Source: Sedimenticola sp.
GTDB taxonomy: Bacteria > Pseudomonadota > Gammaproteobacteria > Chromatiales > Chromatiaceae
Direction of reading: 5' to 3'
Assembly (NCBI GenBank): GCA_011051655.1
Contig: DRKS01000021.1
Coordinates: 1 to 64,000 of the forward strand
Length of the DNA stretch: 64,000 bases
Shown here: piece by piece, positions 1,921-43,096 of the stretch
Layout of the letters: each line of letters opens with the position of its first letter
How positions within the stretch are numbered: position 1 is the stretch's first letter
Program-made: the position numbers and the translations under genes
Notes under the pieces: generated by a model
Told to the model about the DNA's origin: nothing
Database searches by the model: none
Seen by the model: the letters and a program-made list of their open reading frames with translations, nothing else

Positions 1921-2274
1921 TCATTTATTGGCGGCCGGTTTCTCCAGCACCGCGTGGCAATTGTCGCAAAGATACAGTGGGAATGCGTAAGCGCTGTTGT
2001 GGCACCCTGAATAACCGCAGTACTGCTCGGTCATGTTTTTTTGCATATTGATATCGTTCGCTCCATGCTTGTCAATGAAGATTTTGGGGTGGCAATCTCC
2101 ACATTTGTACCACTGCTCATGCAGCTTATGAGGGTATGTGACCCGGCCCACATTGGCCTGCTTCATGCTGTCAAGCTTTGAATCCAGAATGATATCCGCA
2201 ATATCGCTTGCAGGCACGGGGGCTGAAAGCAGGGACAGAAACACAATAATTGCGGAAAGTGACGCTTTGATCAT
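1921..2274 (-). CDS. Triheme c7-type cytochrome, periplasmic
   Basis: The 117-residue protein has a signal peptide ending PVPASDIAD and a single c7-type triheme domain of the nanowire_3heme type. The domain starts with YPHKLHEQWYKCGDCH, followed by the CGYSGCH and CDNCH heme sites. The second site is CX4CH rather than CXXCH, unlike every other heme motif in this cluster. The start at 2274 was chosen because it gives a proper signal peptide; a longer reading from 2316 adds 14 residues that do not look like an exported N-terminus. It is the last gene of the minus-strand cluster and probably an electron carrier working with the hexaheme paralogues upstream. Confidence 0.85.
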   Translation of the reverse strand: MIKASLSAIIVFLSLLSAPVPASDIADIILDSKLDSMKQANVGRVTYPHKLHEQWYKCGDCHPKIFIDKHGANDINMQKNMTEQYCGYSGCHNSAYAFPLYLCDNCHAVLEKPAANK

Positions 2275-2333
2275 GGTAGTTGTTGCCTTGGGAAAATGGG
2301 CGCTATTATACAGCATCTTGAAACGCGGTGATG

Positions 2334-3242
2334 TCAGGGGTTCTTGGCTTCACGCACCAGTACGTTCTTGCCCAGCGGCGTGCCCTTGGGGTGATTGTGG
2401 CAACGCATGCAGTCGCTGATGGGGAAGGCGGTTTTGTCGTGGCAGCGGGAGCACCATTTCCCCTTGCCAATATCCATCATGGTGATGTTGTTCGCTCCAA
2501 GCTCATCCTTGAAGATGGCTCCGCCCTTGGTTTCATGGCATATCTTGCATTCGAGCCAGTAGCTGTGGATGCCGTGAGGGAACAGGACGTCCGGCATGCT
2601 TGCGCCTTTTGCCACGAACAGGATGTCATTGTCCCGAATGCGATGCTCTGTTTCTTTTACCTCCGGGTCGAGGCTCCATAACGGCTGGACTATTTTCTCT
2701 TTTACGGCCTTGGCCCAGTCCACTAGGCCATATTTATCCAGGGGCAGGCCGCTTTTCGACAGTGCAAGCGGATGCCAGCCGGAAGCGATTTCCATGAATT
2801 TTGAGTAGGGCTTTGCTTTCGTGCCGACCTTGCCGAGCAACAAGTCCACCTTGCTGACGCCCTTCACGGAATGCTGGATTACGCCAGGGCTCCACCCGGG
2901 CTCAAGGGCATGGCAGCGTTCACATTCCAGCGGTTCCCAGGCAATGAGCCCATTGTGGCAGACGCCACACATCTCCTTTTTCTCGGTGATGATCGCCATG
3001 CTGATTTCATTCTCCCCCGCCTTGAGCCGGAAGATATCTTCATGGCATACGCTGCAGCGAAACCGGATCCGGTGAAACCAATGAGGGAAAACAACGTCAT
3101 CGACCTCGGCGTCACGCATGGCCTCGGCAGTCTTGTTCAGGATGATATCGCCATACTCTGCGAAGGCGCTGTCAAGGGGGAAAACTGCGAGAATACTGAG
3201 GGCGATAGCGACAACTGGTCTCAACATCATCTGCGGCAGCAT
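2334..3242 (-). CDS. Hexaheme cytochrome with two c7-type triheme domains
   Basis: This 302-residue exported protein has a signal peptide ending near AFAEYG. Domain 1 opens with VFPHWFHRIRF and has hemes at residues 63-67, 92-96 and 107-111. Domain 2 opens with LFPHGIHSYW and has hemes at 232-236, 264-268 and 278-282. The two are joined by a linker with the motif GLPLDKYGLVDW, shared with two other proteins here. Domain 2 has a short insertion after its first heme. The FPHxxH histidines are likely axial ligands, as in other c7-type domains. It is probably a periplasmic electron-relay protein. It lies 60 bp from the next gene downstream and belongs to the long minus-strand cluster. Confidence 0.9.
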   Translation of the reverse strand: MLPQMMLRPVVAIALSILAVFPLDSAFAEYGDIILNKTAEAMRDAEVDDVVFPHWFHRIRFRCSVCHEDIFRLKAGENEISMAIITEKKEMCGVCHNGLIAWEPLECERCHALEPGWSPGVIQHSVKGVSKVDLLLGKVGTKAKPYSKFMEIASGWHPLALSKSGLPLDKYGLVDWAKAVKEKIVQPLWSLDPEVKETEHRIRDNDILFVAKGASMPDVLFPHGIHSYWLECKICHETKGGAIFKDELGANNITMMDIGKGKWCSRCHDKTAFPISDCMRCHNHPKGTPLGKNVLVREAKNP

Positions 3243-3299
3243 GGTTGGAGTTCTTACGGGTTATTGTGTAAACGGCCGGACTGCTTGGAAGTGGAATGG

Positions 3300-3701
3300 C
3301 TAATTGCAGTCCGGTATGTTCAATTTATAGGTTAATGGTTCCTCCGGCTCTTCCTCGCCGTCGTCTTCAATGTCACGCAGACCATGCACCATGATGCGGA
3401 TGTAGTCCAGCTCTTCCCTGGTAACGTCGCTCCATTCGCCGTCATCCGTTTCCATGGCTTTCAATTCACGCATCATTTCTCCCACCGCCTTCTTGTCGTT
3501 GCCGATCCTGGATTCCTTCAGCGTCAAGAGTTTTAAGATGGTGCTTTTGAATTTTATGTTTCTATGCAGAAACAGCAATTTTTCCCATTTTCTTGCGTCT
3601 CTTGAAACATTTACGGTAATGGCGGCCAGTTGCTGCCGTGTAAGCGATATGAGTTTGCGGTAAATACGGCTGTCTTTTTGATGTGCGGTGATGCTGGTCA
3701 T
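3300..3701 (-). CDS. Small charged protein of unknown function
   Basis: This 133-residue protein has no signal peptide, no membrane segment and no heme motif. The N-terminal half is basic (MTSITAHQKDSRIYRKLISL) and probably helical. The C-terminal part is strongly acidic (DIEDDGEEEPEEP). I do not recognise a family. It sits between two hexaheme cytochrome genes on the same strand, so it may be co-transcribed and could be a cytoplasmic assembly or regulatory partner, but nothing in the sequence proves this. The ribosome binding site is weak. Confidence 0.55.
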   Translation of the reverse strand: MTSITAHQKDSRIYRKLISLTRQQLAAITVNVSRDARKWEKLLFLHRNIKFKSTILKLLTLKESRIGNDKKAVGEMMRELKAMETDDGEWSDVTREELDYIRIMVHGLRDIEDDGEEEPEEPLTYKLNIPDCN

Positions 3702-3780
3702 ATGGGTGTTCTTGTCGGTGAATTCTGGATTGAATCCAAGGTGGTCATATCGGGTGTGTGGGGCGCGGCAAGTTTTCGGT

Positions 3781-4992
3781 CTAGCTGTCTTTCCGTTTCC
3801 TTTTCTTCCTGGGCTTGCCTACGTGCATGAGCGCGCCTTCAAATCGTACGCCTTTCTCCTGGCTGTGGCATCGCTTGCAGTCGGCGAAGGTAAAGGAAAC
3901 CTTCCCGTGGCAATGGCCGCAGTATTGTCCCTTGGACATCCTGATCATCTTGACATTGTTTTTGAGATCCTTGCTAAAGACCTCGGGATGGCAGGAGGTG
4001 CATCTTATCCAGCTCGAATGGACATTATGGCTGAACAGAACATTATTGACCTTGCTCTTTGATTCAAAGAGGATTTGGTTGTCTCTCACCTCCTGGTGGA
4101 AGTCCCCATTCAGTGATTCGACCGGCTTGAATATGCCGTCCCGCTTCAAGGTGAGCCAGTCTATGAAGCCGAAGCGGTCGACAGGGATGCGCCCATCAGG
4201 CAACTTGTCGATATTCCATTCGGCCCCAAGGCGCTTTGCAACCTCCTTGATGTGCTGGTGGTCAACCGCGTCCGCCTTATGCAGCCTTTCGGATCCCGGC
4301 CTTCCCGCAAGGTGGCATAAGTCGCATTTGTCCTTTTCATCGGCGCCAAAGGCGGTATTGCCGTCGTGGCAGACACCGCACTGTTTGCCCGCCAGGATTT
4401 TCTCCTGGGATATTTCATTGCGCCACCGCTTCATAATAAAGATTTCCTGGTGGCAGACCTTGCATTCGAACCAGATCCGATGGACCCAGTGAGGGTAGAT
4501 CACCGGCGCCAAGCCTTGCTGTTCCATTTCCTTCTCGTGCGTTTTCATGACGAAGTTGCCCAGAAAACGCTCCTCCTTTTTCCACTTCATCAACTCGGCG
4601 TTTCGCTGCTTTTCCTTTTCCAGTTCGTTGCTGATCAGCTTGTGGATTTTTCTAAGCAGTTTTTTACCGCCGCCGTGGTAATGTTGATAACCATTGGCCA
4701 TGGCGTTTGCGGCATCCAGCAGGAACATTCTTTGGCCGATGCTTATGTCGTCTGACATGGCGTCATCGATCAGGCTGCGTATTTCTCCCGGCAGGATGTC
4801 TTTGTTTTCTTTCAGCAGTTCCTCCTGGGCCTTGAACTGAAAGGTCTTGTAATTCGTTATGAATTGAATGCGAAACGGCGTGTCCTCGGCATTGCAGATG
4901 GCGGGGAGGAGGAAGAGCAGCAAAGTTGAAACAAGAACCGCCCTGAGGGGGAGAAGGGCGGGAAGGTCGATTTGTTTCATGCTTGGCGTCAT
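3781..4992 (-). CDS. Hexaheme c7-type cytochrome with extra N-terminal helical domain
   Basis: Starting at 4992, this protein of 403 residues overlaps the stop codon of the preceding gene as ATGA, implying translational coupling. A signal peptide ends near ICNAEDTP. It is followed by about 125 residues of heme-free, mainly helical sequence, then two triheme c7 domains. Domain 1 begins IYPHWVHRIWFECKVCH with further CGVCH and CDLCH sites. Domain 2 begins LFSHNVHSSWIRCTSCH with CGHCH and CKRCH. The domains are joined by a linker containing PVDRFGFIDW, the variant of the motif seen in the other hexahemes. The C-terminus is very basic (KPRKKRKRKDS). The N-terminal domain is unique among the three hexahemes and may dock a partner. 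Confidence 0.88.
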   Translation of the reverse strand: MTPSMKQIDLPALLPLRAVLVSTLLLFLLPAICNAEDTPFRIQFITNYKTFQFKAQEELLKENKDILPGEIRSLIDDAMSDDISIGQRMFLLDAANAMANGYQHYHGGGKKLLRKIHKLISNELEKEKQRNAELMKWKKEERFLGNFVMKTHEKEMEQQGLAPVIYPHWVHRIWFECKVCHQEIFIMKRWRNEISQEKILAGKQCGVCHDGNTAFGADEKDKCDLCHLAGRPGSERLHKADAVDHQHIKEVAKRLGAEWNIDKLPDGRIPVDRFGFIDWLTLKRDGIFKPVESLNGDFHQEVRDNQILFESKSKVNNVLFSHNVHSSWIRCTSCHPEVFSKDLKNNVKMIRMSKGQYCGHCHGKVSFTFADCKRCHSQEKGVRFEGALMHVGKPRKKRKRKDS

Positions 4993-6239
4993 TTTGTTGC
5001 AGCCTTGTTGTCGGCGCGCCATTTCCGGGCCGCCGAAATGGACCTCATCAGGAATGCTGAAGAAAGCTGGTACGCCTTTGATGCGCATTTGAGATTTCCT
5101 TGTGACTTCATTTCCTTGCCGTCGGCGCGCTCTTTTTCGGCGCGCCTGTAGAGGTCGAGGGCGTTCAGTCCGCCGTTCCCTTTGTCGATGCCCCTCTGTC
5201 TGGCGCGCTCGAGGTAGGCATCACTGACGGCAATGGCGGTCTCCAGTTCGTCCGCGATAGTCTTTGCCGCCCGCTCCTTGGCGCGGGATAAGGCCATGGC
5301 CTCTTTCAGTGATGCCGCCAGATCCTGCATTGCCCAGTATGCTGCTTCATGCTGTCCCCGCTCAATCTGAGCGGCAATGCTTTTTATGGTCTTTCGGCCA
5401 CGCTCCAATATGGCGATGGCCTTCTTGTTTCCGCTCTGTTCTATCTTTTTGGCGCTTTTTCCGGCAAGCAGGCGTGTGCTGATGTATTTAAACTGGCGTG
5501 CCACCGATTTTTTCAGCTTTTTCGGCGTCATGCCCTTGGGAAGGGTTTTTTTCTCCTTCGGGGTGAATTTTTTCTCCGTTACGGGCGCGGCCCGATTGTC
5601 TGCCTGCTTGGGGCGGGAACCGCTGCGCTTCTTTTTGGAGAGGGCGATGGCCTTCTGCAAGAGCCTGGATGAATCCAGGAAAACGGCCATGGCGGACTTG
5701 TAGTCCTTTGCAATCACCAGCCGGTTGGCCTCGTTCCGTGCCTTCTGCGCCCGCTGAAAAAATTCGAGGGCCTCCGGGCCACCGTCTCCCTTGTCGATCT
5801 TTCTTTGCTTCGCCCGGTTGTAATAGGCGTCGCTGGCGATGCGTGCGCTTTCCATGTCATCCTTGATTTTCTTGGCCGCTATATCCTTGGCCCGGACCAT
5901 TTTCATGGCGGTCCTGAGGGATTTGCCTAGATCCTGAAGGGCCCAGTACGAGGCCTCAAGTTTTCCCTGGCGGATTTGTTCGGCGATCCGGTCTCTCTCT
6001 TTGCGGCTGTTCTGCAATATGGCGATCGCCGAGGCATTTCCGCTTTCCTCGATCTGGCGGGCGCTCTTGCCGGAGAGCAAGCGGTCATCGATGTATTTGA
6101 GCTGGCGGTTGACCGATTTTTCCAGCTTTTCCGGCGTCATGCCCTTGGGGAGGGCCTTGCCGGTTTCGGCATGAAGAGAAGCAGCGCTGGAAAGGATTAC
6201 CAGTATAACTGCCAGGAATCTCCAGATACTTCTCTTCAT
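4989..6239 (-). CDS. Exported heme-free protein with tandem internal duplication
   Basis: The 416-residue protein begins with a signal peptide (MKRSIWRFLAVILVILSSAA, ending SLHAET). The mature protein is two copies of about 180 residues. Each starts with LPKGMTP.KL.KSV.RQ, continues with a GKSA..IE.SGN..AIAIL segment, then ASYWALQDL or AAYWAMQDL, and has RAKQRKIDKGDGG or RARQRGIDKGNGG near its end. There is no cysteine heme motif and the sequence is highly charged and helical. The family is not recognised. Its location between hexaheme genes, with ATGA coupling to the next one, suggests a structural or scaffold role for the periplasmic cytochromes. This is inference. Confidence 0.8.
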   Translation of the reverse strand: MKRSIWRFLAVILVILSSAASLHAETGKALPKGMTPEKLEKSVNRQLKYIDDRLLSGKSARQIEESGNASAIAILQNSRKERDRIAEQIRQGKLEASYWALQDLGKSLRTAMKMVRAKDIAAKKIKDDMESARIASDAYYNRAKQRKIDKGDGGPEALEFFQRAQKARNEANRLVIAKDYKSAMAVFLDSSRLLQKAIALSKKKRSGSRPKQADNRAAPVTEKKFTPKEKKTLPKGMTPKKLKKSVARQFKYISTRLLAGKSAKKIEQSGNKKAIAILERGRKTIKSIAAQIERGQHEAAYWAMQDLAASLKEAMALSRAKERAAKTIADELETAIAVSDAYLERARQRGIDKGNGGLNALDLYRRAEKERADGKEMKSQGNLKCASKAYQLSSAFLMRSISAARKWRADNKAATK

Positions 6240-6287
6240 GCCTACTTTGTCGATATGGCGTCAGCCAAGTGCAGGAGCAATCAACTC

Positions 6288-7394
6288 TCAGTCAGAGTAA
6301 GTGCAGTCTTCACTTTCCTTGCAAGCCTTTACCTTTTCCCTGTTGTGACATTTTTCGCAGTCCTCCAGGGGGAAGGCGACCCTGCCATGGCACTCACCAC
6401 AGTACTTGCCTTTGGCCATCTCCCGCATGGTCATCACGGTAGAGCCGGCGGAGCGCGTGAAACGGTGCGGATGGCAGCTCTTGCAGTTCAACCACCAGGC
6501 ATGCAGGGTGTGGGGGAACAAGACCTCGGAGATGGTCTTACTCTTCACCTGAATGATGATGTCTTCGATGTCTTCGTCCCCATCCGGGTTGAATGTATAG
6601 TGGACGGGTGACTCATAGAGGGGGTCATCAGGGTCGATGGAGCCTTTTGGCAGCAGCATGCCGTTTTTGGTGATTTTGATCCAGTCGACGAGACCATACT
6701 TGTCCTTCGGCAGGCCGGCGATGGAGAAGGCCTTGGGTTGCCAGCCGGCACCCCATTTGAAGGCGCTGCCCGCAGGCTTGCGGCGATCACCCCGGCCTGC
6801 CGGTTTGCCGCTTCGGCCGGCGAACAGAATATCTGCGGGGTTGGTGATCTCCTTGGGCTTTTGTTCGGCTTCGAGTTGCTCGATGGGGTAGAAGTGGCAG
6901 TTCTCGCACTCCAGGGGATCCCATGCCACAGAGCCGTCGTGACAGACGCCGCATTTTTCACCGGCGCTGATGGCGTCCATGTCAATGATGTTGGCGCCCT
7001 TGTTGGTCTCGAAGACGTCTTCGTGACAGACCTTGCAGCGGAAGCGAATGCGGTGGAACCAGTGCGGGAAGACAACTGCGTCCACCTCGCCCTCTATCAT
7101 GCCTTCCTTGGTTCTGGCCATGACGATATCGCCATAAACGAGCTCCACTTTTTCATAGTCAGGCTCAGCCGGCTGAGGTTTGGGAGCGGGTTTTTTGGCC
7201 GCTACGGTTTTCTTTTTGGCCGGTGCGGCCTTTTTTGCAGGGGGCGCCGCTTTTTTAGCAGTTTGCTTTACAAACTTTGCCGCCTTTGCTGGTTTCTTTG
7301 TTGGCTCGGCAGAATAGGCGCCGCCAGAGAAGACCAGGAACAGACCAATGAATATTAACAGTGATAGTAGTGTTGTACCCTTGAGTTTCACCAT
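6288..7394 (-). CDS. Hexaheme c7-type cytochrome with Lys/Ala/Pro-rich N-terminal spacer
   Basis: The ATG at 7394 is preceded by GGAGGAGG with an 8-nt spacer; the GTG at 7403 overlaps that site and is unlikely. The 368-residue protein has a signal peptide ending GGAYSAEP, then a Lys/Ala/Pro-rich stretch (about residues 30-77) that could act as an extended tether. Triheme domain 1 (VFPHWFHRIRF) has hemes near residues 120, 148 and 163. Domain 2 (LFPHTLHAWW) has hemes near 304, 332 and 346. The connecting linker carries GLPKDKYGLVDW. The C-terminus has two further cysteines (CKESEDC). It is likely a periplasmic electron-relay protein. A terminator lies between it and the upstream monoheme gene. 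Confidence 0.9.
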   Translation of the reverse strand: MVKLKGTTLLSLLIFIGLFLVFSGGAYSAEPTKKPAKAAKFVKQTAKKAAPPAKKAAPAKKKTVAAKKPAPKPQPAEPDYEKVELVYGDIVMARTKEGMIEGEVDAVVFPHWFHRIRFRCKVCHEDVFETNKGANIIDMDAISAGEKCGVCHDGSVAWDPLECENCHFYPIEQLEAEQKPKEITNPADILFAGRSGKPAGRGDRRKPAGSAFKWGAGWQPKAFSIAGLPKDKYGLVDWIKITKNGMLLPKGSIDPDDPLYESPVHYTFNPDGDEDIEDIIIQVKSKTISEVLFPHTLHAWWLNCKSCHPHRFTRSAGSTVMTMREMAKGKYCGECHGRVAFPLEDCEKCHNREKVKACKESEDCTYSD

Positions 7395-7450
7395 CACTTT
7401 CACCTCCTCCAGCTTTACAAATTTCAGATTTGATATTGTTTTGGATGCGT

Positions 7451-7484
7451 AAAAAACTCAAGGGGGTTAAAGAAACCCCCTTGA
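7451..7484 (-). terminator. Intrinsic terminator inside the cytochrome cluster
   Basis: On the minus strand, an 11-bp stem (TCAAGGGGGTT at 7458-7468 with AACCCCCTTGA at 7474-7484) and a 5-nt loop are followed by six T residues (complement of 7451-7456). It lies directly after the monoheme cytochrome gene and about 55 bp before the hexaheme gene start. Full termination would split the cluster into two units; partial read-through would set a ratio between the upstream enzyme genes and the downstream hexahemes. Confidence 0.85.
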
Positions 7485-7504
7485 ATGGTTAGATCAATCC
7501 TTAA

Positions 7505-7918
7505 TTACTGCACCAAGGACCTGATGTAGTGCACGAGCCCCCAAACCTGCTCATCGGTCAGTTCTTTTCCTTTTTTGGCCTTGCCAGCCATCCAGGGTTT
7601 CATCTCGGTCCCCTCACTGCCGTGCATGGTGATCCAGAAGAGTTCACCGTCGGTCCGGTCGATACCCCCGGTCCAATCCGGCGGCATCGGGTCCATATCC
7701 TTGGCGCCAGGACCCTTGCCGTTGCCTTTGGAGCCATGGCACTTTTTGCATTTTTTCTTGTACAATTTCTTGGCAGCTTTTAAGACATCGTCATCGGCCT
7801 CAACGGGGTTTTCCATAGCCTTGGCGTCAGCCGGAATCTCTGCCTTGGCAAAGGCCGCTGGAGAAAACAGGTATGCGGCCGCCAGGGCGGCAACAACTGT
7901 GACATTTCTTTTCAACAT
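7505..7918 (-). CDS. Monoheme class I c-type cytochrome
   Basis: This 137-residue protein has a signal peptide ending PAAFAKAE and one heme site, CKKCHG, near residue 57. Downstream are a DMDPMPPDW segment, a MKPWMAGK segment whose methionine is the likely sixth ligand, and the C-terminal helix LTDEQVWGLVHYIRSLVQ typical of small cytochrome c domains. The ATG at 7918 is preceded by GAGG with 7-nt spacing. It is probably a soluble periplasmic shuttle between the pentaheme/molybdoenzyme complex and the hexaheme proteins, based on gene order. It is followed by a strong terminator. Confidence 0.9.
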   Translation of the reverse strand: MLKRNVTVVAALAAAYLFSPAAFAKAEIPADAKAMENPVEADDDVLKAAKKLYKKKCKKCHGSKGNGKGPGAKDMDPMPPDWTGGIDRTDGELFWITMHGSEGTEMKPWMAGKAKKGKELTDEQVWGLVHYIRSLVQ

Positions 7919-8097
7919 ATATATACCTCACAATTGATGATTGGTCAGATTGATGTAGGTCCAACGGTCAGCAAACGGCAGCTTAGGCTGTTTACCGTCC
8001 GAAAATCGCAGTTATCGCAGAGGTCATATGCTACCCTGCAAACCGCATATTGAGGCGGCCAGTATTATGTAACTGGGAACCCATGCCCCTGCATGAG

Positions 8098-8192
8098 ACT
8101 CCCCGCTATATGGGGGAGTTCAACATTTTTAGCCTCAGGTTGCTATCCCCCGCCGGAGATACTCCGCTTTTTCTGAGGAGTATCCCGGCGGG
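8098..8192. other. Two intergenic hairpins between pentaheme and monoheme genes
   Basis: The 293-bp gap at 7919-8211 holds no convincing gene but two strong hairpins. At 8149-8192 a 16-bp stem (CCCGCCGG, bulged A, GATACTCC / GGAGTATC CCGGCGGG) closes an 11-nt loop. At 8098-8119 ACTCCCC pairs with GGGGAGT around an 8-nt loop. Neither is followed by a clear T-run in the minus direction. They look more like an RNA processing or stability structure than a simple terminator. Confidence 0.6.
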
Positions 8193-8211
8193 CAATCAGG
8201 CTTTTTCCTTT

Positions 8212-8877
8212 CTACTCCTCGTCCTCTTCCCAGTCCACTTCTGCGTGAACCAGATTGTAGTGGCAATGGATGCAGGACTTTCCTTTCTCCTTCATTGTCT
8301 GGTGGCGCTTGATTTCGTTCCACCACTCACTCTCGGTTTTGTGGCAGACCTGGCATTTGGCGCTTTGCGTTTCAATAAATTTCTTCCGCACTTTCTTTGC
8401 CAGTTCGATGCGTAACTCCTCCCATTTGGGAATATTCCGCAAGCTGTTGGAGATGGCATGGAAGGGACTTTCACCCAGTCCGCCCTTGTTCACATAGAAG
8501 AATTTCCACCGGAGGATCTGGGCCACACTGTGTGGTTCGTGACAACCGACGCAACCCGGGCGAACGCCCAACTCGTTATCATAGTGGGGTGATTCCCGGT
8601 ACTCCTCGTAGGGATAGGCATGACACTCGGCGCATCCCACAGTGGCGTCGAAGGCTTCGGGCTCGAACAGTTGCCGAGGCTTGTAGTCCTCTATGTCCGT
8701 GCTTACCTCGCCCATTGGCTTGTATTCATCGTAATCGACGAATATCTCATGGCAGACCGTACAGACGCTGATTCTCTGGAATCTGGTGCTGGTGCAGCTT
8801 ACAACCGAGATGACAAGGATCAGGATGATTGCGCCGGCGGCAACGGCGAGTCCGGCTTTAGTTTTTAGGAATTCCAA
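8212..8877 (-). CDS. Membrane-anchored pentaheme cytochrome, NapC/NirT-like
   Basis: The 221-residue protein has one N-terminal membrane anchor (about residues 9-28) and five CXXCH sites: CTVCH, CAECH, CVGCH, CQVCH and CIHCH. Layout and size match the NapC/NirT/NrfH group, which passes electrons from quinol to periplasmic partners, although that group usually has four hemes. A very acidic C-terminus (VDWEEDEE) follows the last heme. The start is TTG at 8877 with GGGGGA eight bases upstream; no ATG lies nearby in frame. It follows the molybdoenzyme gene by about 41 bp and is probably the link between the quinone-facing complex and the periplasmic hemes. Confidence 0.85.
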   Translation of the reverse strand: MEFLKTKAGLAVAAGAIILILVISVVSCTSTRFQRISVCTVCHEIFVDYDEYKPMGEVSTDIEDYKPRQLFEPEAFDATVGCAECHAYPYEEYRESPHYDNELGVRPGCVGCHEPHSVAQILRWKFFYVNKGGLGESPFHAISNSLRNIPKWEELRIELAKKVRKKFIETQSAKCQVCHKTESEWWNEIKRHQTMKEKGKSCIHCHYNLVHAEVDWEEDEE

Positions 8878-8918
8878 TCTACTATTCCCCCATTATTGTA
8901 TCGGTCTGAAAGCTAAGC

Positions 8919-11276
8919 TTATCCGAGCGACTTTTTGTAAATAGCGAGATGCTTGGCGTTATCGACATTGATGTCTCCGTACTTGTCCCCCGATTCTGCC
9001 GGTGTAACTTTTACCACCGTATCATTCCAGGCCTGGACGCCACTTTGTGGATCCAGGGCGATGGGGATGATGTCGTTGGGATTGGTGCCGCCATCCCGCC
9101 ACCAGAGGTTGTGATCGATGTCCTCATCCTCTTGCTCCTCGTGGGCAAAAGGCGCATGGGCGCGCGGGTTGGCCTGCGCTACCCTGCCGTAGGCGCTGCG
9201 GCCAACGGATGTGGAAATGCCGACAACCTGTGGGTGGATGCCTTGTGTCACCCATGCCTTGGTGACCAGATAGCCCACGTCGCTGGTCACCCTTACCAGG
9301 GCCCCGTCCTCGATCCCGAGTTTATGGGCCACTTCCTTATTGATCCACAGGGGATTGGAGTGCCACATCTCGGAGAGAAGCTTGAGGTTTGCAGTCAGGG
9401 ACAGGGACTGATAGGCCACCTTGAAGGTGCTCAACACGAACTCACCCGGCTTCAGGTCAGCGAGACGGGGGTTCGGGTTCCAGCTGGGCAGCGGGATCTC
9501 CACCCTTCCCGATGGGGTCGGAAGTCCCTCCGTGTGGAAGGTGTTGTATTCGGCCTCGATCACTTCTTTCTTCTTGACGATCTTTCTGCCGCCCGGGCCG
9601 ATTTTTCCATAGCTTGGCCAGGCGCCCTTCTTTTTCAGGGTCTTGTAGGTCTTCTTTTTGTCGATGCCCTCAGTGGCTTCAATCTGTTTTTTGACCCAGG
9701 TCTTGGCGTCGGAGAATGCCCAGTACTGTTTCATGCCCTTGGAGCCGTCGGCGTCGATGGCTTCAACGATCTTCTTCAGCGTCACGCGCACGTCCTGGGC
9801 CCGGCCGCGCGGCTTGAACTGGGGCCTGGTCATGCTTATCCAGGGGAAGAGGGCGGTGGGGCTGCTGGCCACATCGTCTCTTTCCACCCCGACGACGTCC
9901 GGCAGTATGATGTCCGCCAGCTCGGAGGTTTCACTCATGAAGGGGCTGAAGTCCACAATATAAGGAATGAGCTTTTCATCCTTGAGGACTTCTCGCCAGA
10001 CGCTTGCCGCAGGCGAGGAGTAGGCCGGGTTGCTCATGTGATTGAAGAGAACCTCTACCTTGCGGGCGCCTTCTTTCACTTCGAAGGGAAAACTGTGGTT
10101 CAGCTTCCTGACGGCGCTGCCCTTCGGCTCGGGGGCCGGCTGCAGGGTGGCGATGTTGAACTTCCGCGGGAGGCAGTTGCCGCCTTCGGTATCGATATTG
10201 CCGGTGATCACCGCAAGCAGCAGACAGGCCGTTTCGGCATCGACGCCGCCCTGATGGTAGCTGACGCCGTTCTGGCTGAGTACGGCCCCTGATCCCGCCT
10301 TGGCGAATTCGATAGCGATCCGCTTGATATCCTGTGCGGCCACGCCGCTGGCCTTGGCCGCCTTTTTCAGGGTGAACTGTTTCAGGTGTTCTGCCAGTTG
10401 ATCGGTGGTGTAGTCGGTCCAGTATCCGATGAACTGCTTGTCCGCCAGGCCTTTCTCCATGATCACATTGGCCATGGCCAGGGCCACGATGCCGTCGCTG
10501 CCGGGGAAGACAGGGTGCCATTCGTCACTGCGGCCCGCGGTGTGCGACATGCGGACATCGAAGGTGATGAGCTTCAGCTTCTGTTCCACCATGCCGTCGG
10601 TCAGGCGCTGAGCCAGGGGGGCGGCGGTCTCAAGGATGTTGGAGCCGAAATTCAGCACATATTGGGTGTGTTCGAGATCCGGCAGTACAAAATCGACGCC
10701 CAGCGCCTTCTCGGTGGCGGCCTGCTTGGCCGCATTGTTGATGGAGGGAAAGCGGCTGCGGATGACCGAGCTGGAGCCGATGGTATCCATAAAGCGGACG
10801 GTGCCGCCATCCTTGAAAGCGCCTTCGTTGAGATGGACGGTGTCGGCGCCTTTGTCCAGCGCCTTTTGAACCTTGCCGGCCACTTCTGCAATGGCGTCTT
10901 TCCAGCTGATCTCCTGCCACTGGCCGGAGCCGCGCGGCCCCGTGCGCTTGAGAGGGGCGAGAATCCTGTCCGGATCGGAAGCCCCGAAGAAGGAGGCCAG
11001 GCCCTTCGAGCAGAACTTGCCGCGGGTGGCGACATGGTTGGGATCACCCTCCACCTTTTGAATCTCCCCATCTTCGGCATAGGTGTAACCGCCGTCGAAG
11101 TAGGGGCACATGGTGCAGAGGTAGGGCGCCCTGGCACGCGGATGGAATGTCCTGATCTGATGGAAGTCCTCGCCGCCAAGCTTGAGTTCCATCGCGCTGC
11201 CGACCCCGGGGCAGGCGGCAACGGCTGTTGTTGCTGCGCCTACCTTCAAGAAGTCACGTCTGTTGATTTTTGACAT
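8919..11276 (-). CDS. Tat-exported molybdopterin oxidoreductase with altered Fe-S and Mo ligands
   Basis: This 785-residue catalytic subunit of the DMSO-reductase family has a Tat signal (NRRDFLKVGAATTA). The N-terminal Fe-S region is C54-x2-C57-x3-D61-x27-C89: the spacing is canonical but Asp replaces the third Cys. In the region where Psr- or Nap-type enzymes carry the Mo-ligand Cys, the sequence is SRFPSINNAAKQAATEKALG, with no Cys or selenocysteine codon. The remaining domains (pterin-binding ELADIILPDVVGVER, C-terminal barrel with NPLWINKEVAHKLGIEDGAL) are present, so it does not look like a decayed gene. The start at 11276 has GGAG nine bases upstream. With the NrfD and Fe-S genes it forms a CISM complex facing the periplasm. 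Substrate unknown. Confidence 0.9.
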   Translation of the reverse strand: MSKINRRDFLKVGAATTAVAACPGVGSAMELKLGGEDFHQIRTFHPRARAPYLCTMCPYFDGGYTYAEDGEIQKVEGDPNHVATRGKFCSKGLASFFGASDPDRILAPLKRTGPRGSGQWQEISWKDAIAEVAGKVQKALDKGADTVHLNEGAFKDGGTVRFMDTIGSSSVIRSRFPSINNAAKQAATEKALGVDFVLPDLEHTQYVLNFGSNILETAAPLAQRLTDGMVEQKLKLITFDVRMSHTAGRSDEWHPVFPGSDGIVALAMANVIMEKGLADKQFIGYWTDYTTDQLAEHLKQFTLKKAAKASGVAAQDIKRIAIEFAKAGSGAVLSQNGVSYHQGGVDAETACLLLAVITGNIDTEGGNCLPRKFNIATLQPAPEPKGSAVRKLNHSFPFEVKEGARKVEVLFNHMSNPAYSSPAASVWREVLKDEKLIPYIVDFSPFMSETSELADIILPDVVGVERDDVASSPTALFPWISMTRPQFKPRGRAQDVRVTLKKIVEAIDADGSKGMKQYWAFSDAKTWVKKQIEATEGIDKKKTYKTLKKKGAWPSYGKIGPGGRKIVKKKEVIEAEYNTFHTEGLPTPSGRVEIPLPSWNPNPRLADLKPGEFVLSTFKVAYQSLSLTANLKLLSEMWHSNPLWINKEVAHKLGIEDGALVRVTSDVGYLVTKAWVTQGIHPQVVGISTSVGRSAYGRVAQANPRAHAPFAHEEQEDEDIDHNLWWRDGGTNPNDIIPIALDPQSGVQAWNDTVVKVTPAESGDKYGDINVDNAKHLAIYKKSLG

Positions 11277-11292
11277 TGTATTATTCTCCAAA

Positions 11293-12201
11293 TCAATAGA
11301 ATGACTGTAGGTATTGGCCGCCCATTACCCACCAGATTCTCATGCCGTAGACACCGAAGGCCACCAGGAAGGAGGCGCCATAAACGCCGAGCCTGGTGCG
11401 CTTCAAGGGTGAAACCAGTATGGCAAGCGGTATGAACAAGCCGATGACGGTCTCGAGCCAGACATAGGGGAAGTTGAAAATGCCCATCAGCACTTCTCCG
11501 TGTCCCAGCATTTCGCTCTCGGTGCCATAATGGGTCTGCATGAAGTCGAGGTAGAGCAGGAAGATATCAAATACGATGCCGTACATCATGTATTGAGCCA
11601 TCTCCTCCATCAACGACCATTCGATGCGCTTTTCAGGGCGAACGAAGAAGTTCTGGATCCACAGGACTATGATCATCAGGCCGATACCGGATATGAAGGC
11701 GCCGGTGAGAAAGAGCAGCGGCGCAAGGGCGGTATGGTTGATGTAGCGCCCGGGGTTGAGCTCCATGACCACGCCGGTGTACCAGTGCGTGGACAGCGCC
11801 AGCACGATGGCGATGATGCCCACGAACCTTGCCCAGAACTGGTCGTTCTTTACAACGAAATAGACGTATATGAACATGGAGACCGGATAGCTCATGATCA
11901 GCAGAGCGCCCCAGGCCATGGGGCCGGTGCTGTGCCAGTAGCCCGGCAGCATGAGGTATATAAAGCGCAGCGGCTTACCCAGGTCCCAGATCAGCAGTAC
12001 CGGCACGATCAGCAGCATCACGATGGCCAGAATGGATGCCGACAGGGCCAGCGGCTTGTAGCGCTTGATTCCGAATACCCAGCCGAAGGCGGAAAGTACA
12101 AATGAACCGGCGCTGGCGCCTACGAGCCAGAAGTAGATTGAAATAGGCGTTCCCCACGCAACGTGGTGGAAGGCATTGCTTATGATTACGCTGTCATCCA
12201 T
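11293..12201 (-). CDS. NrfD/PsrC-type integral membrane subunit
   Basis: This 302-residue protein has about eight or nine transmembrane helices and begins in the periplasmic-loop style of the family (MDDSVIISNAFHHVAWGTPI). The segment WDLGKPLRFIYLMLPGYWHSTG resembles the quinone-site region of PsrC/NrfD proteins. It likely anchors the Fe-S and molybdenum subunits and exchanges electrons with the quinone pool, without heme. The ATG at 12201 has AGGGGGG eight to nine bases upstream. It is 13 bp from the Fe-S gene and 16 bp from the molybdoenzyme gene, so the three are clearly one transcription unit. Confidence 0.9.
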   Translation of the reverse strand: MDDSVIISNAFHHVAWGTPISIYFWLVGASAGSFVLSAFGWVFGIKRYKPLALSASILAIVMLLIVPVLLIWDLGKPLRFIYLMLPGYWHSTGPMAWGALLIMSYPVSMFIYVYFVVKNDQFWARFVGIIAIVLALSTHWYTGVVMELNPGRYINHTALAPLLFLTGAFISGIGLMIIVLWIQNFFVRPEKRIEWSLMEEMAQYMMYGIVFDIFLLYLDFMQTHYGTESEMLGHGEVLMGIFNFPYVWLETVIGLFIPLAILVSPLKRTRLGVYGASFLVAFGVYGMRIWWVMGGQYLQSFY

Positions 12202-12214
12202 CGTTGTCGCCCCC

Positions 12215-13096
12215 CTAGCCGAAGATCAGCTTCTTAAAAGCGTTGAATACACCAGCCGCTTTGTGTGGTATCGAAGCTATAAAGTCGGCCATGTTCTTAC
12301 CAACCCAGTACATCGTTGATTCACCTTCCACGATATCGGCGAATGCATCGCCAAAGTGGTTTTTCTTAAAGGTGTTGAATTCTTCAACGAGCTGACGGGA
12401 GCGGAACTTGTAGCTGTGGTTTTCGTCCATGATCGCCCAGTCGCCACCGATATAGTAGACGGACGGGCTGGTTCCCAGCTCTGGCTTCAATACGGATACC
12501 TGCTCCTTTGAGACCAGCTTGGCCACCTGACTCTTCGGATCGTTCAAATCGCCAAATATGCGGGCTCCGCCCACGCATGCCTGGACGCAGGCCGGGACGA
12601 GCCCTTTCTTCACCCGGTGAATGCAGAAGGTACATTTGTCGACGACCAAGCGGGGGAGGTTCTTGCCCTTGCGCGCTTCCGGCAGAAGATGCCTGGCGTT
12701 GTACGGGCATGCCACGACGCAGGTACGGCAGCCGATGCAGCGGTTGTAGCGCTGCAGCACAAATCCGTCTTCGTTCTTGAAGGTGGCCTGAGTGGGGCAG
12801 TTGCGCACGCAGATCGGATAGTCGCAGTGGTTGCACAGGCGCGGCATGAATACGCGTTTGGTGTGTGGATACCGTCCCTTGTCCGCCACCTTCACCCAGG
12901 TTCGCCAAACCCCCAGAGGAACGCCGTATTCGGCTTTACAGGCCACGACGCAGGACATGCATCCAATGCATTTTCGCAGGTCGATCACCATGGAATAACG
13001 TTTTTTACCCGGAACGCCCTTTGTTCCGGGTGTCTGGATTCCGTATGTTCGAGGCAGGTGTTTAACGGGCCTCATATTTTTGTTTTCTGTAGTCAT
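12215..13096 (-). CDS. Four-cluster ferredoxin-type electron-transfer subunit (PsrB/TtrB-like)
   Basis: The 293-residue protein has four cysteine groups for [4Fe-4S] clusters: CIGCMSCVVAC (residues 43-53), CNHCDYPICVRNC, CIGCRTCVVAC and CTFC...CVQAC. This is the standard B subunit of complex iron-sulfur molybdoenzymes, carrying electrons between the molybdenum subunit and the membrane subunit. About 100 residues of unassigned sequence follow the last cluster. No Tat signal is present, so it is probably exported by hitch-hiking with the molybdenum subunit. The ATG at 13096 has GGGAG four bases upstream. It is the first gene of the minus-strand cluster, downstream of a long regulatory gap. Confidence 0.9.
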   Translation of the reverse strand: MTTENKNMRPVKHLPRTYGIQTPGTKGVPGKKRYSMVIDLRKCIGCMSCVVACKAEYGVPLGVWRTWVKVADKGRYPHTKRVFMPRLCNHCDYPICVRNCPTQATFKNEDGFVLQRYNRCIGCRTCVVACPYNARHLLPEARKGKNLPRLVVDKCTFCIHRVKKGLVPACVQACVGGARIFGDLNDPKSQVAKLVSKEQVSVLKPELGTSPSVYYIGGDWAIMDENHSYKFRSRQLVEEFNTFKKNHFGDAFADIVEGESTMYWVGKNMADFIASIPHKAAGVFNAFKKLIFG

Positions 13097-19684: not shown

Positions 19685-20278
19685 ATGAAAAAAAGACATG
19701 CCACAGCCGTGCTCTTTGTCATATTTTTTCTCACAATGGCGTTGCAGGCGGCAGAGGCGAAGCCAAAATATGTGGGCAGCAAGAAATGTGGAGGCTGCCA
19801 TAAATCGGAGCAACTGGCCTGGCAGGTCAGCATTCATGCCAAGGCATTTGATTTGCTTAAACCAGGCAAACGGAAGAAGGCAAAGAAAAGGGCCGAACTC
19901 GACCCCGAGAAGGACTACACGGCGGATAAAAAATGCGTGAAGTGCCATGTTACCGGCTATGGTGAAAAAGGCGGCTACAAAGACATTAAATCAACACCCA
20001 ATATGCTTGGGGTCGGTTGTGAAAGCTGCCACGGCCCCGGCAGCAAATATGTGATATTGCATGATGAGAAAATGTATGGTTTTGGGCGGAGTGAGGCCAA
20101 AGCGCTCGGGCAGACCTACGGCTCCGAGGATGAGTCTGTTTGCATAAAATGCCATGGAGACAAAGACTCCCCCTTCCATGAAAAAATTGACCCGAAATAT
20201 AAATTTGACTGGAAGGCGGCGCTTGCGAAGAGAAAAACCTTCCATCCCAAGAAGAAAAAAAGCAGCTTTGCCTTTTAA
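19685..20278 (+). CDS. Tetraheme cytochrome c554-like protein
   Basis: The 197-residue protein has a signal peptide ending AAEAKPKYVG, then four heme sites: CGGCH (35-39), CVKCH (84-88), CESCH (112-116) and CIKCH (153-157). The spacing and the start YVGSKKCGGCH..E match the cytochrome c554 family, known as the electron acceptor of hydroxylamine oxidoreductase in ammonia oxidisers and as a general periplasmic carrier elsewhere. The C-terminus is lysine-rich (HPKKKKSSF). It stands 62 bp before a diguanylate cyclase gene and near a heme-carrying Wsp receptor, so it might also feed redox information to them. This last point is inference. Confidence 0.88.
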   Translation: MKKRHATAVLFVIFFLTMALQAAEAKPKYVGSKKCGGCHKSEQLAWQVSIHAKAFDLLKPGKRKKAKKRAELDPEKDYTADKKCVKCHVTGYGEKGGYKDIKSTPNMLGVGCESCHGPGSKYVILHDEKMYGFGRSEAKALGQTYGSEDESVCIKCHGDKDSPFHEKIDPKYKFDWKAALAKRKTFHPKKKKSSFAF

Positions 20279-20340
20279 TGGGCGTTCATTGATTCTGGCT
20301 GGCTGTTGGCACACCGGGTGGCTGAGTGGGATATTAAAAA

Positions 20341-22341
20341 ATGAGCCTGTTTGATGGATTCAAAAAAGCAATCCTGGATCTCAGGCTCAGTACCAAATTT
20401 ATTGGGGCGATAGCCATTATACTGGTCATCATGACGGTAATGGACATCGCCTATAACGCCGAAAAGAATCGCAAGATTTCCCAGGAAGCCATAAAGGAAT
20501 GGACCTTCCTTTTTGCTGAAAATGTCAGGGTTGCATTGAATACATTAATGCGGCAAGGGCAGATGGATATGCGTTTTTCCCTTTTCAAGAGCATGCATGA
20601 GGAACTGACAGGGCTGAAAGATGTTCGGGTTATCAGGAGCAAACTGACTAATGAGATATTCATGGAAGTCAACAGGCGCAATATTATCCCGCCTCTTCAG
20701 GAAATGAAACGTGCATATGAGGAACAGCTTGCCAATCTTGATGGCCTCCTGAAAAATGCAGTGGATGAGGACGAAAAGGAAGAGCTTATAGAGCAACGGG
20801 CTGAGCTGCAAGATAGCGTTGAAGAGATTGAAGATCAAATCAGAGAAGCATCAAAATTCATAGAGAGGGACGAGCGTGAACGTCCAAGAGATGCACTTGA
20901 GGAGCAGGTCCTGAATACCGGGCAGCCTGTCTACCGCTTCTATGGTGATAATGCCAGGGTGCTTATCCCTTACACCGCCAAAGAAAAAGGCTGTTCAGAG
21001 AAAGATGGCTGCCATGTCTACGCCAAGCCGGGAGATGTGCTGGGGGCCATCAATCTGGAATTTTCCATAAAGGCCATAAACCAGCAGATCAGAGAAAATA
21101 ATATAAAAATGGCCGGTGTATGGCTTATACGATTCATTGTATTTTTATTGGTCATAACCCTGCTTCTTTCCTTTATCATTACCGGCAACCTGCACAAAAT
21201 GCTGCGGGTCTTTAACAAGGTTGCCGAGGGTGACTTCTCTGTAAGAGCGCCTGTAAAAAGCAAGGATGAAATTGGCGAACTTGCCATGGGCTTCAACAGC
21301 ATGGCAGCTTCCCTTGATGAAACCAGAAAGGAACTTGACCACAGGCTTTTGGAAATCTATGCACTATACAATATAAGCAAGACACTGAATGCAAGTTTTG
21401 AAACCGAGCAATTGTTAATCCAACTGATTGAGGATATCTGTAAAAACCTTGATGTTGATCGCATGGTGATTCTGTTACCCGACAAGTTTTTTACAGAACT
21501 TACAGTAGCTTCTTATACTGGTTTTACCGATGAGGAGGCGCGTCGGATCAGGCCTGATTTACATGAAGGCATCTACTCTCTCATTGCATCTGAAGGTATA
21601 AGCCGGTTGATTGAGAATGTCGATACTGATGTCACCATTATGGAGCATGATATTTTCAGTCCAGACATCGGTTCTATCATTGCTGTTCCTTTCCTGAGGC
21701 GGGGAAAGGTATTGGGCATAATATGCGCCTTTCGCAACAGGCCGAAACAATTCCAGTTCTCTGATCTGAAGTTGTTCAATAGTGTAGCCGAGCACTTGGC
21801 TGTCGCAATTGAGAATGCCCGTCTTTTTGAAAAAACCAAGGAGATGGCGATAACAGATGGCCTTACCAACCTGTATAACAAACGCTTTCTGTTGGATGTT
21901 TTGGAGTCTGAAATAGCCCGTGCATCAAGATGTGGGCATAAGCTTTCATTGATCATAATGGATATCGACAACTTCAAACATTATAACGATACTCATGGGC
22001 ATCCTGCCGGAGATGCGCTGCTCAAAGAGCTTTCATTATTGATCAGAAAGTCAATAAGAAAGGTGGACATTCCCTGTCGCTATGGTGGAGAGGAATTTGT
22101 CGTGCTTCTTCCTGAAACCTCCAAGTTGGAGGCATTAGTGGTTGCAGAAAAACTTGTAGCCACAATAGCTGAGTATCCGTTTGCTCACGCCGAGGATCAG
22201 CCGCTTGGTTGTGTGTCCGTCAGCATGGGCTTGGCGGAATATCCACAGGATGCTGATGATGATGAGGGTCTTGTCTCTGCTGCAGATAAGGCGCTTTACA
22301 CAGCCAAAACGACAGGAAAGAATCGAGTCGTTCTCAGTTAG
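20341..22341 (+). CDS. Transmembrane diguanylate cyclase: periplasmic CX5CH sensor, HAMP, GAF, GGDEF
   Basis: The 666-residue protein has two membrane helices (about 20-38 and 262-284) around a periplasmic domain with a long charged coiled coil (about 120-180) and the motif CSEKDGCH (218-225). Next come a HAMP domain, a GAF domain (about 350-500) and a GGDEF domain with GGEEF and an upstream RKVD, a plausible inhibitory c-di-GMP site. It should synthesise c-di-GMP. CX5CH is not a standard heme-attachment motif, but it sits just where the neighbouring WspA receptor has CLDCH, before a similar GAINLEFS-type segment, so heme or metal binding is possible but unproven. Confidence 0.85.
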   Translation: MSLFDGFKKAILDLRLSTKFIGAIAIILVIMTVMDIAYNAEKNRKISQEAIKEWTFLFAENVRVALNTLMRQGQMDMRFSLFKSMHEELTGLKDVRVIRSKLTNEIFMEVNRRNIIPPLQEMKRAYEEQLANLDGLLKNAVDEDEKEELIEQRAELQDSVEEIEDQIREASKFIERDERERPRDALEEQVLNTGQPVYRFYGDNARVLIPYTAKEKGCSEKDGCHVYAKPGDVLGAINLEFSIKAINQQIRENNIKMAGVWLIRFIVFLLVITLLLSFIITGNLHKMLRVFNKVAEGDFSVRAPVKSKDEIGELAMGFNSMAASLDETRKELDHRLLEIYALYNISKTLNASFETEQLLIQLIEDICKNLDVDRMVILLPDKFFTELTVASYTGFTDEEARRIRPDLHEGIYSLIASEGISRLIENVDTDVTIMEHDIFSPDIGSIIAVPFLRRGKVLGIICAFRNRPKQFQFSDLKLFNSVAEHLAVAIENARLFEKTKEMAITDGLTNLYNKRFLLDVLESEIARASRCGHKLSLIIMDIDNFKHYNDTHGHPAGDALLKELSLLIRKSIRKVDIPCRYGGEEFVVLLPETSKLEALVVAEKLVATIAEYPFAHAEDQPLGCVSVSMGLAEYPQDADDDEGLVSAADKALYTAKTTGKNRVVLS

Positions 22342-22478
22342 TACTTTGCCACACAGCACCGAATTTGTCCGGTTGCAGGACTAATCAGGTCCGTAGCAGT
22401 GATATGCTTTCTCAGTGGCTTCGATGCCTGCCGTGAACCCCCGTCCATCAAGCGCTTCCCGCATAATTTAGTGAACTG

Positions 22479-22502
22479 ACCCCATGTTAAAGAGTATGGG
22501 GT
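22479..22502. other. Hairpin in the intergenic region upstream of wspA
   Basis: ACCCCAT (22479-22485) and ATGGGGT (22496-22502) form a 7-bp stem around a 10-nt loop in the 268-bp gap at 22342-22609. It may be the terminator of the diguanylate cyclase gene, without a T-run, or a relic of a mobile-element end: TGAACTGACCCC resembles sequences common at insertion-sequence borders. No gene is supported in this gap. Confidence 0.35.
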
Positions 22503-22548
22503 GTTGGCCGATCAATACGGTAATACAGCAAGCCGGGGAAGTAATTTC

Positions 22549-22565
22549 CTGGCATTTCACGTGCT
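22549..22565 (+). promoter_or_regulatory. Putative sigma-54 promoter of the wsp operon
   Basis: CTGGCATTTCACGTGCT carries GG at 22551-22552 and GC at 22563-22564, exactly 12 bp apart, and otherwise fits the -24/-12 consensus TGGCAY-N-TTGC with few mismatches. It predicts a transcription start near 22575, about 35 bp before wspA. No binding site for an activator was identified. Tentative. Confidence 0.4.
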
Positions 22566-22609
22566 TTATTGCTCCAAATCAACCAGAATTTAATTAAGGA
22601 ATACTATTC

Positions 22610-24571: not shown

Positions 24572-24602
24572 TGAAAACTCGCCCTAATAATAAGATGCTA
24601 GC

Positions 24603-25097
24603 ATGATGCTTCTTTTATTCAATATAGGCGAAGAGCGGTACGGAGTTGATGTGTCACAAGTGCTGGAGGTTCTGCCATTTTTAAAATTAACGCCAATACG
24701 CAAAACCCCGGCCTATGTAGCTGGTGTCGCCAATTGCCGGGGGCAATTGATCCCTGTACTGGATATATCCAGAATGTACACAAAAAAATCTGCCTCCAAC
24801 CGCTTAAGTACAAGAATAATTTTAGTTACGCAAACGCTGGCGGATGATAAAAAACATGTGCTTGGAATATTGGCGGAAAGGGTTACGGATGCTGTGCGTA
24901 TAGATAATATGATGCCAGCCTCTCCATATGAAAAAGAAAATAAATCAATGCTTCTTGGGCAAGAGCTGATAATGGTGGATGAACAGATTATTCAGCGGGT
25001 TAATGCTGATGAATTGTTGCCTTCATATCTGCATAAGCGCTTATTTCACCTGAACACTCCAACAAAACCACATGATGCAGGAAACGAATGTCATTAG
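24603..25097 (+). CDS. wspB: CheW-like adaptor WspB
   Basis: The 164-residue protein is a single CheW domain (LLFNIGEERYGVDVSQVLEVLP, ..GVANCRGQLIPVLDIS) that would couple the WspA receptor to the WspE kinase. It lies 31 bp after wspA, and its last 10 bases overlap the next gene. The position between the receptor and a CheR-TPR gene matches the Pseudomonas wsp order. The start is the first of two adjacent ATGs; the ribosome site is weak. Confidence 0.9.
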   Translation: MMLLLFNIGEERYGVDVSQVLEVLPFLKLTPIRKTPAYVAGVANCRGQLIPVLDISRMYTKKSASNRLSTRIILVTQTLADDKKHVLGILAERVTDAVRIDNMMPASPYEKENKSMLLGQELIMVDEQIIQRVNADELLPSYLHKRLFHLNTPTKPHDAGNECH

Positions 25098-26332: not shown

Positions 26333-26355
26333 CGCGGTATGATTGAGATATTGCA

Positions 26356-30379: not shown

Positions 30380-30380
30380 G

Positions 30381-31409: not shown

Positions 31410-31605
31410 ATATAATCTCTGTGCCGACATTTTATCCGTAATTCACAATGTTATTCCGCCTGGCCGGATCTATGGCTGTGACGGGTTGACATGTTCCAAT
31501 AGCATTTTGGCACTATCAATGGGCTGATCCAGCAATCGTATAAGGCCTGCCTTGTTCTTGAAATTTATCCTTATTTGTTGGCTGTCTAAAGGATTAACAG
31601 AACCT

Positions 31606-31630
31606 ACCGCTATCTCTTAAGAGATGCGGT
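31606..31630. promoter_or_regulatory. Palindrome upstream of small exported-protein gene
   Basis: ATCTCTTAAGAGAT (31612-31625) is a perfect 14-bp palindrome flanked by ACCGC (31606-31610) and GCGGT (31626-31630) with one unpaired T. It lies about 55 bp before the small exported-protein gene in the gap 31410-31684. It could be an operator or a hairpin terminator without a T-run. Nothing else was seen in this gap. Confidence 0.4.
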
Positions 31631-31684
31631 AAATGCTGTGTGTGAACCCATGCAGCTCTAAATCTGTACGGGAAGGAGAGTAAT

Positions 31685-42817: not shown

Positions 42818-42844
42818 TCTTCGCATCGGACAGGAGGCAATACA

Positions 42845-43096
42845 TTGAACATCTCAGGAATCATTGTCACTACCGCGCCGGACATGAAGGACGCGGTCGT
42901 AACCGAGATCGGCAACATGCAAAACATCGAGGTCAACGATGCATCCCTGAACCAAACGGTGATCGCCACGGTTGAAGTGGAAACGCTTGGTGACGCCGCC
43001 GCCATTTTCAAGAATGTTCACGATATTACCGGTGTAACGAACGTAAGCTTGGCCTGCAGTTACGAGGTAGAGGAAGGTGAACAACTCATCAATTAA
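42845..43096 (+). CDS. napD: NapD chaperone
   Basis: The 83-residue protein begins [18 protein letters not shown], and has a ferredoxin-like fold pattern typical of NapD, which binds the Tat signal of NapA and controls export. The start is TTG at 42845, supported by GGAGG seven bases upstream and by agreement with the family N-terminus. The rare start may keep chaperone levels low. It ends 44 bp before napA. Confidence 0.9.

Follow-up and report, generated by a model that had tools for sequence, protein, structure and literature searches.

Cytochrome bc1 or NirT, the latter known to donate electrons from the quinol side to cd1 enzymes, is usually taken to be the link between quinol and cytochrome cd1 nitrite reductase (NirS). 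Complex iron-sulfur molybdoenzymes (CISM) of the PsrABC, PhsABC and TtrABC type hold an Fe-S subunit, a NrfD-type membrane subunit and a molybdenum (Mo)-type subunit exported by twin-arginine translocation (TAT) in one operon; the Fe-S subunit carries four clusters and a Cys serves as Mo ligand. Alternative complex III (ACIII, ActABCDEF), for which quinol:cytochrome c activity has been proposed, combines a pentaheme membrane cytochrome, a cofactor-less Mo-like subunit, four Fe-S clusters, NrfD and a monoheme partner (PMC8076601). QrcABCD joins a multiheme cytochrome to Mo-like, Fe-S and NrfD subunits, and QrcB and ActB are described in PMC6303296 as cofactor-less members of the Mo-like family. 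Here we describe a related cluster of 11 open reading frames (ORFs) on the minus strand, running from 13096 to 1921 in a stretch of 64,000 nucleotides from Sedimenticola sp. (hereafter the window), which is part of a 73.5-kb contig in a 3.1-Mb, 96% complete assembly. Its first four genes, for Fe-S, NrfD, Mo-like and pentaheme cytochrome c subunits, are referred to as the core. We consider it somewhat better than an even bet (about 0.55), judging from the sequences, that the core and its partners are a quinol:cytochrome c oxidoreductase that supplies cd1 nitrite reductase and works in the manner of ACIII or Qrc, though assembled from PsrABC/TtrABC-type CISM parts, with a relay of c7 cytochromes added in the window lineage.

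The core shares with the PsrABC, PhsABC and TtrABC enzymes the four-cluster Fe-S protein and NrfD adjoining a TAT-exported Mo-type subunit in one operon, and PsrA and PsrB are its best sequence relatives. Unlike them, it has lost the Mo-ligand Cys, has an adjacent pentaheme gene, is linked to the cd1 enzyme and has no adjacent TorD gene. ACIII resembles the core in the parts listed above, but in the core separate genes encode the Fe-S and Mo-like parts, there is no ActD or second NrfD (ActF), the PsrA-type fold of the Mo-like subunit is retained in full, and the pentaheme protein is not recognisably ActA by sequence. Membership in ACIII was rejected on subunit make-up (no ActB fusion, no ActD/ActF-like gene in the cluster) and because no ActB chain is found among the best 60 PDB matches. 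Qrc is made of similar parts; however, QrcB and QrcC models score far below their cut-offs on the core (164 vs 440 and 130 vs 400 bits), a NapC-like pentaheme protein stands in place of QrcA, and the partner is NirS instead of cytochrome c3/hydrogenase. The NapC/NirT quinol dehydrogenases share a Pfam family with the pentaheme subunit, which differs in having five hemes, one ahead of the NapC-like region, and in always accompanying a NrfD/Fe-S/Mo-like core with its own quinone site. The system is real and conserved, and we class it as a variant among the NrfD-based quinone/cytochrome complexes and not as an enzyme of a new kind. An earlier note on this DNA had not recognised the combination as a known system, and no description of the gene cluster was found in the open literature searched, subscription journals lying outside that coverage.

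The Mo-like subunit has lost the Mo ligand. Among the closest paralogues that bear the Cys, which are Psr/Ttr-like, the ligand is the Cys of 'TSIC'. At this alignment column the window protein has Asn185 and its orthologues Gly or Ser; none of the 20 clade rows has Cys (N/S/G), whereas all seven nearest paralogues and the NapA of the same genome keep it. Thus the Cys ligand of PsrABC-type CISM enzymes is absent here. In the tree, the ligand-less proteins form one clade (SH-aLRT (Shimodaira-Hasegawa-like approximate likelihood ratio test) support 99), within which the c7-linked loci group together with moderate support (87), surrounded by nir-linked loci. The FS0 motif reads CxxCxxxD...C in the window protein and most of the clade, with a third Cys in L040/L041 (handles L, C and G denote loci, contigs and genomes), and an RS(R) motif beside the ligand position is nearly invariant. 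In a sister subclade (L081, L129-L133) the Mo-like subunit has lost the FS0 cysteines along with the ligand segment; the Fe-S and NrfD subunits of this subclade are still ~50-60% identical, and its pentaheme gene is fused to two more c-type heme domains (7 hemes). Loss of the cofactor as well is what we infer for the Mo-like subunit from its sequence. The AlphaFold2 model (mean predicted local distance difference test score (pLDDT) 82; weakest in the ligand loop, in two C-terminal loops and around the N-terminus) has the full fold of the DMSO-reductase family and is closest to formate dehydrogenases, PsrA, Nap and ArrA; by profile comparison of sequences, PsrA matches at 2e-106. TorD-family genes adjoin Cys-bearing paralogues in two cases tested; none was seen beside the core, and the sole PF02613 match in the window genome is narJ of narGHJI. 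Contig C5 of the window genome carries a second Mo-type/Fe-S pair (L027, 1052-4386) with the Mo-ligand Cys kept and no NrfD or TorD gene adjoining.

The Fe-S subunit has 16 Cys in four motifs (four 4Fe-4S clusters expected) and no signal peptide of its own. PsrB (2vpw_B) is its best solved relative (E 3e-52), with C-terminal parts of ActB matching more weakly. The profile of the NrfD subunit matches ActC and PsrC, and its N10/H13, D73 and Y141 are conserved in the alignment and correspond by motif to the quinone-site residues of PsrC (taken from PMC8076601). The pentaheme cytochrome has the anchored N-terminal domain of the NapC/NirT type, with a membrane helix at residues 10-28, one heme site preceding the NapC-like region and all five CXXCH invariant in an alignment of 13 rows. 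It misses the curated napC_nirT and torC thresholds (59 vs 311 and 69 vs 478 bits), a PDB sequence search with it returned nothing useful, and no fold is claimed because its predicted structure is too poor (mean pLDDT 48).

Three further loci have the entire 11-gene order, namely L033, L034 and L025 (= L040), the last from a different genus within the family, and the truncated contig of L041 has its first part. The search for this order in other genomes, which the earlier note had proposed, thus indicates that the arrangement is not due to chance, although independent cases are fewer than the count since L033 and L034 are near-identical. These loci carry Sedimenticola or 'Candidatus Polarisedimenticolaceae' titles. 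The loci of the two records under the latter name (L034 and L040; Acidobacteriota in taxonomy) are nearly identical to the Sedimenticola ones, and the titles are probably wrong. Elsewhere only the four core genes travel together, in Gammaproteobacteria, Alphaproteobacteria-labelled and Magnetococcales genomes, and the pentaheme NapC-like gene adjoins every complete core seen. A Thioploca metagenome-assembled genome and Ca. Halobeggiatoa (L037, L038) have the four genes by themselves.

At about 12 distinct loci (L035, L039, L042 (= L121), L079, L080, L119, L120, L122, L123, L125, L126 and L127), nirS adjoins the core, usually with other nir genes. At L039 the order on one strand is nirS, monoheme cytochrome c, Fe-S, NrfD, Mo-like, pentaheme, then nirE, nirC, nirF, nirD/L-type regulators, nirJ and nirN, where nirE and nirJ are named by family matches and the others are presumed from gene order, size and general knowledge. 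At L079 and L080 the core is followed by a homologue of the small gene unkB, lying between the pentaheme gene and nirS, and then by the monoheme gene. The genomes compared are all drafts, so that gene absence carries little weight, and the counts come from samples of relatives without correction for phylogeny. A cd1-domain protein is present in all core genomes (22 of 22, of which two handles are the same locus), in none of the five examined genomes with the sister-clade core, and in 15 of 59 genomes that lack the core (1 of 20 and 14 of 39); the Fisher p for co-occurrence with the core, 2.5e-10, is uncorrected and ignores shared ancestry. The monoheme gene of the cluster has homologues at L035, L039, L042, L079, L080 and L085 and is homologous to the nirS-adjacent monoheme gene of relatives; the window genome has its nirS on C47, and C88 holds the 3' end of a nirS with another monoheme homologue after it. 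The heme-free unkA has a homologue (L087:11388-12305; 52% over 205 aa) downstream of narGHJI on C49 of the window genome. The nirS linkage, the co-occurrence with cd1 and these homologues by nirS and narGHJI place the core, together with its small accessory genes, in nitrate/nitrite respiration.

Because the Mo-ligand Cys is lost across the clade and cd1 nitrite reductase is both a phylogenetic and a genomic partner, the core is probably an electron-transfer complex for nitrite respiration and not an enzyme with a substrate of its own. In such a scheme, the products of the genes from 13096 to 8212 would form a membrane-bound complex derived from a PsrABC/TtrABC-type CISM enzyme, in which NrfD would oxidise menaquinol or ubiquinol and electrons would reach the pentaheme NapC-like cytochrome by way of the four Fe-S clusters. 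A structural or electron-bridging role, like that of QrcB and ActB, is probable for the Mo-like subunit. The pentaheme cytochrome would reduce the monoheme cytochrome and this in turn NirS, encoded elsewhere in the window genome, and separately transcribed c7 proteins (three hexaheme, one triheme) would probably spread electrons among periplasmic acceptors. Quinol oxidation, the direction of flow, the protein contacts and the c7 role are what we infer here. If this is true, a conserved NrfD-based complex in nir operons would give sulfur-oxidising and magnetotactic bacteria another route for nitrite respiration, possibly one that conserves energy, and a further molybdoenzyme would have turned into an electron-transfer scaffold with the stages kept (ligand lost first, Fe-S site later in the sister clade). 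In the window, the c7 proteins would then tie the NirS route to a high-capacity periplasmic heme pool.

Table 1. Features of the cluster in the window, listed in the order of the minus strand.
Feature	Position	Strand	Matches and remarks
Fe-S subunit, PsrB-like, 293 aa	12215..13096	-	Fer4_11 2.4e-21; ATG start at 13096
NrfD/PsrC-type membrane subunit, 302 aa	11293..12201	-	Pfam NrfD 2.2e-30
Mo-like (molybdopterin-oxidoreductase-like) subunit, 790 aa	8919..11291	-	Molybdopterin Pfam 1.7e-25; TAT signal; start TTG 11291 or ATG 11276
Pentaheme NapC/NirT-like cytochrome c	8212..8877	-	Pfam Cytochrom_NNT PF03264 4.6e-29, residues 82-214
Monoheme cytochrome c, 137 aa	7505..7918	-	Cytochrom_C 1.4e-14
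Terminator-like hairpin, 13 pairs, T tract	7456..7486	-	between monoheme gene and hex1
hex1, hexaheme, two c7 triheme domains	6288..7403	-	PF14522 + TIGR04257, two stretches; start 7403 or 7394
unkA, heme-free secreted protein, two similar helical repeats	4989..6239	-	no Pfam/NCBIfam match
hex2, hexaheme c7	3781..4992	-	ORF opens at 5088; probable start 4992 or 4980
unkB, heme-free, no signal peptide	3300..3701	-	no match (Pfam search only)
hex3, hexaheme c7	2334..3242	-	c7 domains by Pfam/NCBIfam
Triheme c7 protein, two CXXCH + one CX4CH	1921..2316	-	NCBIfam; start 2316 or 2274

All 11 ORFs are present where the earlier note placed them (Table 1), and the make-up that it gave, an Fe-S/NrfD/Mo-type core with pentaheme, monoheme, three hexaheme c7, one triheme c7 and two heme-free proteins, agrees with the ORFs and with Pfam and NCBIfam matches. 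Its estimate of about 27 c-type hemes likewise holds, as long as the CX4CH site of the triheme protein is counted (5+1+6+6+6+2 CXXCH plus one CX4CH). The c7 domain (PF14522/TIGR04257) scores above cut-off in the three hexaheme proteins with Pfam and NCBIfam and in the triheme protein with NCBIfam; it occurs twice in each hexaheme protein, and the domains match the 'nanowire_3heme' model. Geobacter-type c7 proteins (PpcA family, nanowire_3heme) resemble the set, two triheme domains making up each hexaheme protein and one the small protein, but the tandem hexaheme forms, the long N-terminal extensions, the Sedimenticola-type genome and the position beside a quinone-linked core set it apart. Three hexaheme paralogues were noted earlier; this is correct for the cluster, whereas at least four further ones exist genome-wide (C53, two on C55, C102). 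The c7 set is an add-on to the core, since hexaheme c7 genes also stand alone in the window genome and in others, including G028, where no close core turned up. A three-gene triheme c7 set, with one lipoprotein-like signal, is conserved away from the core in three genomes (L063 8290-10269, L066 1738-3580, L068 12713-14692).

The hairpin between the monoheme gene and hex1 has a G+C-rich 13-bp stem and a T tract (7486-7456), and hairpins lie at the equivalent place in four relatives (L033, L034, L040, L041). Because of this hairpin and its conserved position, the cluster is probably made up of two or more transcription units, and the arrangement suggests that the c7 genes are transcribed apart from the core and the monoheme gene. 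The earlier note had named independent transcription of the cytochrome genes as a finding that would count against its proposal; the conserved hairpin predicts this for part of them. Strong hairpins can also be folded from the sequence that separates the pentaheme gene from the monoheme gene (7919-8211) and from its counterparts in L033, L034 and L040.

Several observations weigh against a quinol oxidase that feeds NirS. The nirS gene does not adjoin the core in the window lineage, and all other core genomes searched have a full-length match to cytochrome b of the bc1 complex. The core is therefore ruled out as a simple bc1 replacement; no cytochrome c1 was found in the window genome and its cytochrome b matches are weak, which may be an assembly gap or a local loss. 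The cofactor-less complexes described in PMC6303296 have membrane subunits of 10 helices, and the length of the NrfD subunit (302 aa) suggests eight. The closest sequence relative of the Mo-like subunit is PsrA, with ActB missing from the 60 matches mentioned above. This subunit is 59-72% identical across distant genomes, it keeps residues of the paralogues' pterin-binding regions, and its modelled fold is complete; with such conservation it may still bind a cofactor. The missing TorD gene was dropped as proof of a dead Mo site, the argument being weakened because the Cys-bearing paralogue on C5 also lacks one.

The same conservation would be expected of a working Mo/W bis-pyranopterin guanine dinucleotide enzyme that does without a protein metal ligand, its substrate linked to denitrification or sulfur oxidation and its electrons exchanged with the quinone pool and cytochromes. 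Arsenite oxidase holds Mo in this manner, and the FS0 cysteines or Asp kept in the nir/hex clade, together with the RS(R) motif, fit such an enzyme. We nevertheless regard it as doubtful: the ligand position varies (N/S/G), the sister subclade keeps its NrfD, Fe-S and heme partners after losing the FS0 cysteines, the match to AioA is weak (E 1e-15 or worse), and no dedicated chaperone gene adjoins the core. The narrower proposal that the Mo-like subunit binds a bis-pterin metal cofactor without protein ligand and acts on a nitrogen oxide or sulfur compound within a cd1-denitrifier complex seems unlikely; if true, a new enzyme would be hidden in nir operons. The earlier note's molybdoenzyme, acting on a substrate that it did not name, is weakened by the clade-wide loss of the Cys and the cd1 partnership, although the CISM-type core and the c7 relay that it described are real.

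The c7 proteins have been given other roles in two further readings. Since c7 cytochromes are generally of low potential, those of the periplasm, reduced by sulfur or other donors, might reduce quinone through the core, a reversed flow that has a precedent in Qrc, which with parts of the same kind reduces menaquinone from cytochrome c3 (PMC6303296, PMC13059093). However, the linkage and co-occurrence are with NirS, a high-potential acceptor, and the conserved monoheme partner is of the nirS-adjacent type, so that this direction is distinctly improbable. The c7 set might instead be a module for extracellular electron exchange with the core as its inner-membrane gate, as the many hexaheme and triheme c7 proteins of the genome and the 'nanowire_3heme' matches could suggest. 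This we hold to be very improbable: most relatives have the core without c7 genes, G028 has a hexaheme c7 gene with no close core found, and an outer-membrane conduit was rejected as a candidate because MtrB/PioB porins score above cut-off in 0 of 14 genomes searched. The absence of a porin-cytochrome gene, stated earlier for the cluster, accordingly extends genome-wide for MtrB/PioB, other conduit types lying outside the search. A quinol:cytochrome c oxidoreductase for NirS remains the preferred reading.

Elsewhere in the window, the plus strand at 42311-50914 encodes a ferredoxin, a NapA-type nitrate reductase, NapB, NapG/NapH-like Fe-S proteins and two similar tandem octaheme cytochromes (8 CXXCH); no NapC or NrfA was seen among these genes, which may form a nitrate-to-ammonium module whose nitrite reductases are octaheme proteins. 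The stretch 20001-32000 has a G+C content of ~44%, compared with 55-65% around it, and carries chemosensory, CheB/CheR/CheA-like and diguanylate cyclase genes; it may have been acquired.

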